In this document: positions 6,139-9,710 of the stretch, piece after piece
How the letters are laid out: each line of letters starts with the position of its first letter
Position numbering within the stretch: the stretch's first letter is position 1
NCBI GenBank assembly: GCA_905181985.1
Contig: CAJIZW010000052.1
Span: 1 to 33,602, forward strand
Length of the DNA: 33,602 nt
Reading direction: 5' to 3'
Source: an uncultured Paracoccaceae bacterium
Lineage (GTDB): Bacteria; Pseudomonadota; Alphaproteobacteria; Rhodobacterales; Rhodobacteraceae
The notes under the pieces: generated by a model
The model's database searches: none
Told to the model about the DNA's origin: nothing
Seen by the model: only the letters and a program-made list of their open reading frames with translations
Program-made: the position numbers and the translations under genes

Positions 6139-6215
6139 GCGCTGGTAGCTCAGTTGGATAGAGTACTTGACTACGAATCAAGGGGTCGGGGGTTCGAATC
6201 CTCCCCAGCGCGCCA
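6139..6215 (+). tRNA. tRNA-Arg (anticodon ACG)
   Basis: A full 77-base cloverleaf can be drawn. Acceptor GCGCTGG pairs with CCAGCGC, the D arm GCTC/GAGT encloses AGTTGGATA, the anticodon arm CTTGA-CTACGAA-TCAAG gives anticodon ACG, the T arm is GGGGG-TTCGAAT-CCTCC, discriminator G is followed by an encoded CCA. The A34 is normally deaminated to inosine by TadA so that one tRNA reads CGU, CGC and CGA. It lies alone, convergent with the folD transcript. Confidence 0.98.
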
Positions 6216-6311
6216 TTAATTTTCCTTGATATAGGAATAAAGCCAAAAAAACTGAAGCTAACCAACCTATTAAGAGATACTAGTGTAAAGCCTTGGAATA
6301 TATTAGGTAAG

Positions 6312-7181
6312 TTATATCCATTTCTCTTCTTTTTGACGTTTATGAGCATGAACGGCATTTTTCATTAACATAGCAACTGTCACAGGGCCAACTCCACCAG
6401 GTACCGGTGTAATCCATCCGGCGATTTCCTTTACAGACTCTGAGTCTACGTCGCCGACTATCTTAGTTACTCCATGCATGTCAGAAATTTGGTTAATACC
6501 TATATCAATTACTGCTGCTCCTGGTTTTATCATGTCTGACTTAATAAAAAGAGGTTTCCCAATTGCCACTATCACTACGTCTGCTCGGCGTGAATGCATG
6601 GCAACGGATCTAGTCATATGGTGGCAAACCGTTACAGTGGCACCTTCTGCCATTAGGAGAAAAGCTATTGGCTTTCCAACAATCTCTGAATGCCCAATCA
6701 TTACAACTTCCAGGCCCTCCATTTTCAAACCGGTCTCCCTAATTAACTCGACTGATGCGGCAGCGGTACAAGGGGCCATTGCAATATCAGAGTAAACAAT
6801 ATTTCCAATTGATGCAGGGTTCATGCCTTCTACATCCTTAAGGGGATGAATGGCTGATTGTAATGATCTAACGTTTATGTGGTTAGGGACAGGTCGTTGT
6901 AATATTATACCCAAAACCTCTGAGCTATCATTGAGCTTTAATATTCTTTGTTTGCATTCTTCCTGAGTTATATCGTGATCCCAAATTTGCTCATTAAATT
7001 TTATCTCTGATTTTCTGGCGGCATTTGCTTGGTTTCTAACATAAATAGCAGTCTCTGGTGTTTGCCCTATGCATATTGAAACTAATGCGCCCATATTATT
7101 TTGATTTACTGAATATGATTTTACGTCAAGTAATATTCGATCTCTAACTGGCAAGCCGCTTAAGTATCTATTTTCTTTCAA
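6312..7181 (-). CDS. folD: FolD-like methylenetetrahydrofolate dehydrogenase with altered cyclohydrolase site
   Basis: FolD proteins oxidise 5,10-methylene-THF with NADP and then hydrolyse methenyl-THF. I chose the TTG at 7179-7181: AAGGA lies 7 bases upstream, 13 bp after the acyl-CoA dehydrogenase stop, and it gives 289 residues with an E. coli-like N-terminus (MKENRYLSGLPVRD). A longer TTG start at 7223 has no Shine-Dalgarno and overlaps the upstream gene. Family landmarks: IYVRNQANAAR (46-56), GIILQRPVP (91-99), KDVEGMNP (115-122), a Rossmann segment MIGHSEIVGKPIA (161-173) and GWITPVPGGVGPVTVAM near the end. The lysine that E. coli has in YVASK is Gln51, and the second Asp of DVDG is Glu118; the usual Arg/Ala of G-R/A-S is His164. 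It is co-oriented and probably co-translated with the acyl-CoA dehydrogenase. Family certain; bifunctionality doubtful. Confidence 0.9.
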   Translation of the reverse strand: MKENRYLSGLPVRDRILLDVKSYSVNQNNMGALVSICIGQTPETAIYVRNQANAARKSEIKFNEQIWDHDITQEECKQRILKLNDSSEVLGIILQRPVPNHINVRSLQSAIHPLKDVEGMNPASIGNIVYSDIAMAPCTAAASVELIRETGLKMEGLEVVMIGHSEIVGKPIAFLLMAEGATVTVCHHMTRSVAMHSRRADVVIVAIGKPLFIKSDMIKPGAAVIDIGINQISDMHGVTKIVGDVDSESVKEIAGWITPVPGGVGPVTVAMLMKNAVHAHKRQKEEKWI

Positions 7182-7194
7182 GGCTTTATCCTTT

Positions 7195-8355
7195 TCAATT
7201 TCTTTGGTTGAAACGTCTTCCAATTAGTGAGGCTGCAATATTTGTCTTTTGAATATCTATTGCTCCTCCAGCTATCCCCCAACCCCATGAATCTCGAAAT
7301 TTTTGTTCAATTGGGTAGTCGCTCGAGTAGCCATAGGCTCCCATAAGTTGCATTGCTTTACCCGTGACTTCACGACAAATCTCATTCGCATAACACTTGG
7401 CTATTGAACTTTCTCCTACTGTTGGGAGTTTGCTATTAGTGTTAGTGACTGCCCGATATAACAACATTCGAGAAGCATCCAACTTCATCTTCATTTCAGC
7501 AATTGAAATTTGCACTGCCTGGAAATCGATAAGTTGTTTTCCAAATTGTTTTCTTTCTTGAACGTAATTGAGCACATAATCAAACGCAGATTGTGCACAT
7601 GCCAGGCTCATAGTGGTATTGCCGCAGCGTTCAAGATCAAATGCTTTCATTAATTTTTTGAAGCCACCTGCCGGTAAAACAATGTTTTCAAGTGGTAAGC
7701 TGATATTATCAAAGTGCATATCTGCGCTTACGACACCCCTCCAACCCATATGCCGCTCTTTTTTTCCAAAACTTAATCCAGGCTGATTTTTTTCGATTAA
7801 AACAGCACCTATTCCATTTGCACCTTGTTCATTGGACATTTTACAGTAAACGACATAAGCATCGGCATGACTTGCTCCTGAGCACCAACGTTTTGTGCCA
7901 TTAACTAAAACTCTACCATTGCTGATTGTGGCACTGGTACTTAGGTCAGTCAGTGCTGAACCAGCGTGTGGCTCAGACATAGCAACTGCTAAAATCATTT
8001 TACCTGAGCATACCTTGGAGAGTGTTTTTTCTTTTAACTTCTCTGATGCAAAATATGAAATAGCTAATGCCGGGCCAAAACAACTTTCAAAAACTGGGAA
8101 TGCGAGTGCAATCGAAATTTTTGCTACTTCTTCGAGTACGAGCACAGCCTCAAAGTTACTCATGCCTAACCCACCATATTTTTGTGGCAGATTGACACCC
8201 AGAAAACCCATGTCAGAGAATTTCTGAATTATTTTCTTGTTAGGGGGTTTACCTGTTAGCTCAATTTGGGCTGCAACTGCAGTTAGTTCGTTTTTAGCAA
8301 ACTTTCGAACAGAGTCCTGTAATTCTATTTGTTCATTTGACAGAGTAAAGTCCAA
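7195..8355 (-). CDS. Acyl-CoA dehydrogenase family protein
   Basis: FAD enzyme that introduces a 2,3-double bond into an acyl-CoA and passes electrons to ETF. The 386-residue protein has the standard three-part fold: N-terminal helices (MDFTLSNEQIELQDSVRKFA), a middle beta domain with AVAMSEPHAGSALTDLSTSA (124-143) and RWCSGASHADAYVVY (156-170), and a C-terminal helical domain with RKQFGKQLIDFQAVQ (268-282). The usual C-terminal base of the YEGT motif is missing (Gly363 in GIAGGAIDIQ), but Glu242 in AFDLERCG matches the glutamate of isovaleryl-/long-chain-type enzymes. Start is TTG at 8353-8355, backed by GAGGTGA five bases upstream. It precedes folD by 13 bp and is divergent from a CoA-transferase. 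Substrate unknown; a branched or short acyl-CoA is possible. Confidence 0.92.
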   Translation of the reverse strand: MDFTLSNEQIELQDSVRKFAKNELTAVAAQIELTGKPPNKKIIQKFSDMGFLGVNLPQKYGGLGMSNFEAVLVLEEVAKISIALAFPVFESCFGPALAISYFASEKLKEKTLSKVCSGKMILAVAMSEPHAGSALTDLSTSATISNGRVLVNGTKRWCSGASHADAYVVYCKMSNEQGANGIGAVLIEKNQPGLSFGKKERHMGWRGVVSADMHFDNISLPLENIVLPAGGFKKLMKAFDLERCGNTTMSLACAQSAFDYVLNYVQERKQFGKQLIDFQAVQISIAEMKMKLDASRMLLYRAVTNTNSKLPTVGESSIAKCYANEICREVTGKAMQLMGAYGYSSDYPIEQKFRDSWGWGIAGGAIDIQKTNIAASLIGRRFNQRN

Positions 8356-8471: not shown

Positions 8472-9710
8472 ATGACAAATTTCACCAAAGGCACAATGGC
8501 CCTTGAGGGGATAAAAATTCTCGATCTAAGTCGAGTTTTGGCTGGTCCTTGGGCCACTCAAATGCTAGCTGATTTAGGGGCAGATGTTGTTAAGGTTGAG
8601 TCAGTCTTAACTGGTGACGATACACGGTCTTGGGGGCCACCTTTTATTACTAGACCAGATGGTTCAAAGGGTGAAGCTGCGTATTTCTCTTGCGCCAATC
8701 GAAATAAACGGTCAATTACTATCGATTTTTCAAAACCTGAGGGAGCTTCTTTGATCCATGTTCTTTTGCAAGAGGCAGATATTATAGTAGAAAACTTTAA
8801 GGTTGGAGGGCTAAAAAAATACAAATTAGATTATGAATCTATTAAAAAAATCAATCCAAAGATAATTTATTGTTCGATTACTGGCTTTGGTCAGACTGGA
8901 CCATATGCTCACCGGTTAGGTTATGACTTCTTAATACAAGGCATGGGTGGATTAATGAGTATTACTGGTCAGCCCGAAAGCCTTTGTGGTGGAGAACCAA
9001 TGAAGGTGGGTGTAGCCATCTGTGATTTGTTTACAGGAATGAATGCGGGATCTTCAATCTTGGCTGCCTTACATTACAGGAATCGTACGGGTAAAGGGCA
9101 ACATATAGACTGTTCTTTAATGGACAGTCAGGTTTCCATGCTAGCAAATCAAGCATCTAACTGGTTAAATGGTGATGTTGTACCTACTAGAATGGGTAAT
9201 AGTCACCCTAATGTTATCCCTTATCGAGTTTTTGCGTCATCAGATGGACATCTAATAATAAGTTGTGGGAATGACTCACAGTTTCAGAGGTTATGTGATG
9301 CGTTAGGACTTTCAGAAATCTCAAATGATCTTAAGTACAAATCGAATGAAGCTAGGCTTAAGAACAGAGAAGCCCTTGAAACTGAATTACAGTCAGTATT
9401 GGAAAAAATGAAAAAAGAAGATATAATTGAGATGCTAGAAGCGGTAAATGTTCCATGTGGCCCTATAAACAACCTGCCTGAGGTTTTTGCAGACCCACAA
9501 GTTATTTCAAGGAAAACAGAAATTGACCTTAAACGCTCTGATGGTGCTACTATAAAAACAGTTGCTTTTCCGGCGAAGCTCAGTGAGTCACCTGCAACCT
9601 ATAGAAATGCACCGCCAATCTTAGGAGAGCATACTGAAGAAATTTTATTGGACTGGGCAAAACTGTCAGACGAGGAAATTAAATCACTAAGAGAGAAAAA
9701 AGTTATTTAG
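8472..9710 (+). CDS. Class III CoA-transferase (CaiB/BaiF/Frc family)
   Basis: Moves CoA between acyl-CoAs and free carboxylates through an aspartyl anhydride intermediate. The 412-residue product opens with MALEGIKILDLSRVLAGPWA, has DLGADVVKVES (34-44), CANRNKRSITIDF (74-86), and GYDFLIQGMGGLMSITG (150-166). Asp185 in VAICDLFTGMNAG aligns with the catalytic Asp of formyl-CoA transferase. The C-terminal RNAPPILGEHTEEIL is typical of the succinyl-CoA:dicarboxylate branch, but substrate cannot be assigned. The ATG at 8472 has AAGGA seven bases upstream. It is divergent from the acyl-CoA dehydrogenase-folD pair, suggesting a joint acyl-CoA pathway: activation by CoA transfer followed by dehydrogenation. 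Confidence 0.93.
   Translation: MTNFTKGTMALEGIKILDLSRVLAGPWATQMLADLGADVVKVESVLTGDDTRSWGPPFITRPDGSKGEAAYFSCANRNKRSITIDFSKPEGASLIHVLLQEADIIVENFKVGGLKKYKLDYESIKKINPKIIYCSITGFGQTGPYAHRLGYDFLIQGMGGLMSITGQPESLCGGEPMKVGVAICDLFTGMNAGSSILAALHYRNRTGKGQHIDCSLMDSQVSMLANQASNWLNGDVVPTRMGNSHPNVIPYRVFASSDGHLIISCGNDSQFQRLCDALGLSEISNDLKYKSNEARLKNREALETELQSVLEKMKKEDIIEMLEAVNVPCGPINNLPEVFADPQVISRKTEIDLKRSDGATIKTVAFPAKLSESPATYRNAPPILGEHTEEILLDWAKLSDEEIKSLREKKVI

Follow-up and report, generated by a model that had tools for sequence, protein, structure and literature searches.

The window, i.e. the whole 33,602-nucleotide stretch of DNA analyzed here, comes from an uncultured Paracoccaceae bacterium and encodes on its minus strand a 289-aa FolD paralogue (positions 6312–7181, stop codon included) in which a Gln replaces the cyclohydrolase lysine. 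We named the gene folD2. Its ORF is open and intact from the TTG start codon at 7181 down to 6312. An alternative in-frame TTG lies further upstream at 7223 and would give a 303-aa product; the TTG at 7181 agrees with the N-termini of the relatives and is closely preceded by AAAGGA. The protein passed the cut-offs of PF00763 (79 bits; cut-off, 32.8) and PF02882 (203 bits; cut-off, 27).

folD2 is the only evident gene in a 966-bp block (6223–7188) that starts just past the 3′ end of a tRNA-Arg(ACG) gene (6139–6215, plus strand), and an acyl-CoA dehydrogenase gene (7195–8355, minus strand) lies 13 nt upstream of the folD2 start. The block is absent from two genomes of the same genus (G001 and G002; loci L177 and L178), where sequence about 90% identical to the window stops at the 3′ end of the tRNA-Arg gene and picks up again in the last part of the acyl-CoA dehydrogenase gene. 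Because these sister genomes have the acyl-CoA dehydrogenase gene without folD2, the link between the two genes is probably positional, and we rejected an old operon of the pair. None of seven reference genes taken from the neighbors of folD2 in the window was found in the 84 FolD2 loci counted. A recent foreign origin was not supported by composition, the GC and GC3 values of the block being equal to those of the host. The acyl-CoA dehydrogenase gene forms a divergent pair with a family III CoA-transferase gene (8472–9710, plus strand), whose product scores highest against succinate-glutarate CoA-transferase, at 522 bits where the cut-off is 750.

Active-site residues of FolD2

Alignment to E. 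coli FolD, in which Y50, K54, Q98, D121 and R191 correspond to FolD2 Tyr47, Gln51, Gln95, Glu118 and His188, bore out the coordinates, strand and residues of the initial annotation. The catalytic Lys of the YxxxK motif is absent and, as had been claimed, Gln51 (codon 7029–7031; all codons are on the minus strand) takes the place of K54; the alignments rejected misalignment as the cause of this difference. The second Asp of DVDG is indeed Glu118 (codon 6828–6830), which aligns with the pterin-binding Asp (E. coli D121, human D125) and retains the carboxylate. The substrate-site Tyr and the catalytic Gln are retained as Tyr47 and Gln95, and the next residue, Arg96 (codon 6894–6896), is invariant across FolD2 rows, whereas canonical FolD has Leu, Phe or Met there (E. 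coli L99). In place of the Arg and Ser that contact the NADP 2′-phosphate, the protein has His164 (codon 6690–6692), correctly named beforehand as the NADP-loop residue, and His188 (codon 6618–6620). The first position is Ala in E. coli (A167) and Arg in other canonical rows, and the second is R191 in E. coli; the Arg/Ser feature is not universal in FolD, since the E. coli enzyme has Ala and Arg there. The predicted structure of FolD2 (AlphaFold; pLDDT, 91.6) had FolD and MTHFD structures as its top PDB matches, with a Z score of 39.3 and an rmsd of 1.6 over 280 residues for 6ape.

Excerpts of published work describe what some of these residues do in related enzymes. The K54N variant of E. coli FolD keeps about 19% of the dehydrogenase activity while its cyclohydrolase activity is undetectable, and methenyl-THF can also hydrolyze spontaneously (excerpt of PMC5688156). 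In the excerpt of PMC9173628, the lysine is argued to help the dehydrogenase step through binding, not catalysis, while what it does for the cyclohydrolase is left open; the KM of human K56E is more than 6-fold higher, and Asp155 of MTHFD2 is bound to the pterin. The pterin-site carboxylate is called invariant in MTHFDs (excerpt of PMC6443876). The NADP 2′-phosphate ligands are an Arg, a His and a Ser, and Tyr52 and Asp125 bind folate (excerpt of PMC3368264). The initial annotation had stated that Lys-to-Gln in the human enzyme abolishes cyclohydrolase and spares dehydrogenase activity; no report on the effect of this substitution (K56Q) was found in the literature searched.

A dehydrogenase-only or repurposed folate enzyme had been proposed at the outset. 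Because E. coli K54N, as described in that excerpt, lacks detectable cyclohydrolase activity, the first half of this proposal stands as the best inference, and loss of the cyclohydrolase is what the sequence of FolD2 best supports; repurposing is favored by part of the gene neighborhoods and by Arg96, Glu118 and Met/Leu120. The loss of Arg and Ser from the NADP 2′-phosphate site suggests NAD+ use, and a changed cofactor is plausible. Both Glu118 and Arg96 are within the pterin site or adjacent to it, and they could either lower the affinity for THF or point to a different substrate.

FolD2 as a sequence subfamily

A pattern scan of named GTDB genomes yielded at least 591 stretches, 557 of which encode a relative, some of them perhaps canonical FolD, and we examined the best 80 of these at least 557 loci. 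Tyr47, Gln51, Gln95, Glu118, His164 and His188 were all present in 80 of the 80, the count for Glu118 being partly biased because one of the two scan patterns contains this residue. Gln51 and Tyr47 lie outside the scan query segment, and His164 and His188 lie inside the segment but outside both patterns. Genome searches with the whole protein as query located 22 FolD2 loci, and all 22 have Q51, E118, H164 and H188, as well as Tyr47 and Gln95. His187, beside His188, is likewise conserved in all of the best 80, whereas a single one of the 22 has Asn at this position.

We compared 107 FolD2 rows, some of which represent one genome reached by two routes (L005 and L050 have common neighbors), with 53 canonical rows. 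Position 51 is Q in 100% of the FolD2 rows versus K in 100% of the canonical rows, and position 118 is E (100%) versus D (100%); positions 164 and 188 are both H in 100% of the FolD2 rows versus R and S, respectively, in 98% of the canonical rows. The Lys and Asp are retained in 33 canonical loci and in 18 canonical copies adjoining folD2. Since the active-site changes are fixed in the 107 FolD2 rows against the 53 canonical ones, they are not due to chance. At 27 positions, at least 95% of the FolD2 rows share a residue that is rare in canonical FolD; these include Leu to Arg96, directly after the catalytic Gln, Phe to Met/Leu120, Asn to Ser124 and Asp to Glu118. The identity of FolD2 to the canonical rows is about 35–41%.

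In an unrooted tree, a single branch with support of 100/100 parted FolD2 from canonical FolD. A quick tree built without the 27 columns, with E. coli FolD and L025 left out as long branches, gave the same split (SH-aLRT, 100). The locus counts and the two trees thus answer in the affirmative the earlier question of whether Gln51/Glu118 defines a clade. We define FolD2 by Q51, E118, H164 and H188 together and by a place on the FolD2 side of the tree; the window protein fits both and, by its sequence, is a member of a discrete subfamily of FolD paralogues. The root of FolD2 is unsure: the branch of the subfamily is long and attaches to E. coli FolD, a placement flagged with a long-branch warning. 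A recent duplication of an alphaproteobacterial FolD was not supported given that long branch. No paper describing the subfamily was found in the literature searched, which is weak evidence, as most subscription journals were outside the search.

So divergent a protein might act on another substrate, such as a modified pterin or a different adduct of formaldehyde, and no longer be an enzyme of cellular THF. In the alignment, several of the 27 FolD2-specific positions map to the pterin site or close to it (Glu118, Met/Leu120, Arg96 and Ser124), and the low identity to canonical rows points the same way. However, Tyr47, Gln95 and a carboxylate at position 118 are retained, and the informative neighbors of folD2 are THF-linked C1 genes (canonical folD, fhs, fdh, tdm and dmm), and we consider this reading unlikely.

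The median dN/dS of FolD2 was 0.042 and the highest value 0.084 (42 usable of 50 pairs), indicating that the subfamily is under strong purifying selection. It is therefore extremely improbable that FolD2 is a catalytically dead or decaying FolD copy without a role, even though two catalytic-site residues are changed and the gene is missing from the sister genomes: besides the low dN/dS values, the changes are identical in 107 of 107 FolD2 rows, the subfamily occurs in 11 families of the class sample and the predicted fold is confident. A decayed pseudogene was rejected by the low dN/dS and by the identical changes across all rows.

Distribution of FolD2 and canonical FolD

A canonical FolD with YVRSK and DVDG motifs is present elsewhere in the window genome, an assembly of 140 contigs totaling 1.70 Mb that is 78% complete. 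This second protein has the Lys, Asp, Arg and Ser and is about 35% identical to FolD2. The search for a canonical FolD and an Fhs elsewhere in the genome that had been recommended at the outset was thus positive for the former, and Fhs is present as well; PurU gave no match over the cut-off in this 78%-complete assembly. Among 60 related genomes besides its own, FolD2 was found in three, at 71% in two (G005 and G035) and at 55% in one (G051). In a class sample of 386 alphaproteobacterial genomes (at least 90% complete, the window genome apart), 22 genomes from 11 families had a FolD2 match of 324–436 bits, and the best FolD match below this range scored 218 bits. Each of the 22 gave two or more FolD matches, indicating that FolD2 is additional to another FolD. 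In a phylum sample of 396 genomes besides its own, 14 genomes had a match at E≤1e-70, all of them within the same class. The titles of the best 80 loci of at least 557 include Rhodobacteraceae, Rhizobiaceae, Hyphomicrobiales, Hellea and the SAR116 cluster. One genome (G299) has two FolD2-level matches (contigs C45 and C16), at 68% and 65% to the window protein. The closest segment match among the matches listed (L036, 94%) lies on a contig labeled as a Thiothrix MAG, Thiothrix being a name from outside the alphaproteobacteria.

Gene neighborhoods of folD2

In Ponticoccus alexandrii, fdh genes, fhs, folD, folD2 and tdm follow one another in this order, with a 4-bp overlap between folD and folD2, and glyA, ppc, other serine-cycle-type genes, glnT and glutamate-synthase-like genes lie further along. 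In Paracoccus aminovorans, folD2 precedes genes for a BCCT transporter and a GlxA-type regulator. A GlxA/GbdR-like AraC-type regulator gene occurs in 11 of the best 80 FolD2 loci of at least 557 (for example L099:1475–2503), and such a gene directly adjoins folD2 in 11 loci; its match to the GbdR model is below the cut-off. This regulator may control folD2.

Using Tmm, Tdm, Dmm, Tmo, GmaS and MgsC as reference proteins, of which Tmm (L109) and Tdm (L034) pass their NCBIfam equivalogs, we found methylated-amine genes near folD2 in 28 of the best 80 loci of at least 557, and genes of at least two kinds in 24. A further 18 of these best 80 have Fdh, Fhs or canonical FolD without methylated-amine genes. 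As these 80 loci rank highest in similarity to the window protein, the figure of 28 describes the close part of the subfamily; in the class and relatives sets, methylated-amine genes lie near FolD2 in three of 20 loci. Near canonical FolD they were found in none of 20 control loci, six from FolD2 genomes and 14 from genomes without a FolD2 hit in our searches (28/80 vs. 0/20; Fisher p = 7e-4, a test that ignores shared ancestry). Our rule for picking ORFs lost FolD2 in 16 of 100 loci, leaving 84 counted, and the neighbor count was repeated on all 100 without the rule. Fhs does not mark FolD2, because it lies near canonical FolD in 11 of 20 loci, versus nine of the best 80 FolD2 loci of at least 557. 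In the class sample, Tdm was found in 11 of the 22 FolD2 genomes versus 25 of the 364 others (p = 3e-7) and GmaS in 12 of 22 versus 60 of 364 (p = 1e-4), neither p value being corrected for ancestry; nine of the 22 have neither protein. A weak Tdm match in G144, at 35% and covering part of the query, was excluded. We conclude that the FolD2 lineage sometimes adjoins genes for methylated-amine breakdown and that the link is statistical.

A second FolD gene lies directly upstream of folD2 in 17 of the best 80 loci of at least 557. FolD is a dimer. FolD2 might then serve mainly as a partner, pairing with canonical FolD in mixed dimers and changing the activity, cofactor use or channeling of the latter, as the tandem genes, their overlap in Ponticoccus and the presence of a second FolD in FolD2 genomes would allow. 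This is quite improbable in our judgment: 63 of the same best 80 loci have no second FolD, although many of them are on short stretches, and FolD2 itself is strongly constrained. It is also not likely that FolD2 is still bifunctional, as a second FolD tuned for catabolic flux in which Arg96 or another residue replaces the lysine. The new invariant Arg immediately after the catalytic Gln and the frequent location of folD2 within C1 gene clusters would suit such an enzyme, but the undetectable cyclohydrolase of the E. coli Lys-to-Asn variant (PMC5688156, in excerpt) and the second FolD that accompanies FolD2 in each of the 22 class-sample genomes argue against it.

Within the window, folD2 is not linked to methylated-amine genes; these lie elsewhere in the genome. 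A gmaS-type gene passes the NCBIfam cut-off (TIGR03105) and mgs-type genes are also present. Beside them are genes for a GcvT-domain protein (DmmD-like), the alpha subunit of a heme-dependent oxidative N-demethylase (PF11927), a 2Fe-2S-domain reductase, a DmmA-family protein that passes its cut-off (NF041259) and a betaine/choline-type ABC transporter. The names Mgs, DmmD and Tmo are putative for genes of this genome and go by similarity. Pieces of formate dehydrogenase are on two contigs, and Tdm was not found in this 78%-complete genome.

The two sister genomes lacking the folD2 block each have only a canonical-level FolD match, as does a third genome of the genus (G003, 74% complete). Their gmaS-mgs region is 90% identical to that of the window genome (G000) and lacks a block of about 9.3 kb adjoining gmaS-mgs, which holds the dmm-type genes and the betaine/choline-type ABC transporter genes (L219:781–10110; contig C53, 15781–25110); similarity resumes behind it. 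A Tdm query scored 130 bits with the DmmD-like protein of the window genome and nothing above 118 bits in G001 and G002. folD2 and the dmm block at gmaS-mgs are thus present or absent together in the three genomes, which is one comparison in one genus, and gmaS and mgs are kept in the two that lack folD2.

Discussion

We think it probable, though well short of assured, that FolD2 is a dehydrogenase-only methylene-THF dehydrogenase, perhaps NAD-linked, that oxidizes C1 units from demethylation beside the bifunctional FolD. 5,10-Methylene-THF would be supplied by demethylases that depend on THF (Tdm, DmmD and other GcvT-domain enzymes), and from the active-site changes and the gene neighborhoods we infer that FolD2 takes this substrate in the oxidative direction, to 5,10-methenyl-THF, the cyclohydrolase step having been lost. 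10-formyl-THF would then be made by the resident bifunctional FolD or by spontaneous hydrolysis, and would be converted to formate and CO2 by Fhs run in reverse and formate dehydrogenase. A FolD2 branch using NAD+ would yield NADH, while canonical FolD would stay NADP-linked. Against this account, NAD use is read from two residues, at one of which E. coli FolD, NADP-dependent according to the excerpt of PMC6443876, has Ala; moreover, the absence of both Tdm and GmaS from nine of the 22 FolD2 genomes and the low count of methylated-amine genes in the 20 wider loci do not favor it. Nor do the gmaS and mgs genes that G001 and G002 retain in the absence of folD2, or the negative search for Tdm in the window genome.

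A broader reading is possible, but we hold it tentatively and regard it as doubtful: an unrecognized, class-wide alphaproteobacterial FolD2 would be NAD+-linked and dehydrogenase-only, with a rebuilt folate and cofactor site, and would form an NADH-yielding dissimilatory branch for methylated compounds, in contrast to the usual NADPH-linked canonical FolD, possibly in a complex of both.

The paralogue occurs in at least 11 families of a single class. Two public relatives, from Ponticoccus alexandrii and Paracoccus aminovorans, are annotated as "bifunctional", which is probably wrong, so that alphaproteobacterial folate C1 flux models may be in error over both the step and the cofactor. If FolD2 is dehydrogenase-only and NAD-linked, this would explain how energy is obtained from the methyl groups of TMA, TMAO and DMA with the NADPH pool undisturbed, and Q51/E118/H164/H188 would be a sequence marker for the NADH-yielding branch.

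Comparison with known enzymes

The predicted FolD2 resembles bifunctional FolD and the MTHFD1/MTHFD2 domain in its two-domain fold, with Z scores of about 36–39 for most of the PDB chains listed, and shares with them both Pfam domains and the catalytic Tyr and Gln. Unlike bifunctional FolD, it has Gln for Lys, Glu for Asp and His/His for Arg/Ser, together with 23 other consistent differences. Against the NCBIfam FolD models its best score was 262.8 bits (cut-off, 411), and none was passed among the matches listed (25 of 30); the canonical FolD of the same genome passes one, NF010785, among the 25 matches listed for it. Given that the catalytic Lys, the pterin-site Asp and the NADP Arg/Ser pair are all replaced, we classed FolD2 among FolD-fold paralogues and did not count it as a bifunctional FolD.

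Dehydrogenases of this reaction that act apart from a cyclohydrolase are known from published work. Yeast MTD1 (1EDZ) is a precedent for a monofunctional NAD-dependent 5,10-methylene-THF dehydrogenase, and its fold is like that of the predicted FolD2 (Z, 29.2; rmsd, 2.4 over 267 residues). The identity in this structural alignment is 25%, and the comparison is one of fold. The excerpt of PMC11064299 words the MTD1 activity as cyclohydrolase only, while it describes the dehydrogenase interconversion. In Methylobacterium, the dehydrogenase of C1 metabolism is split from the cyclohydrolase as MtdA and Fch (excerpt of PMC4543880); this pair is likened by description, whereas FolD2 itself matches the FolD Pfam domains. 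Peptostreptococcus productus has a bacterial monofunctional dehydrogenase, also likened to FolD2 by description, which is NADP-dependent (excerpt of PMC6443876).
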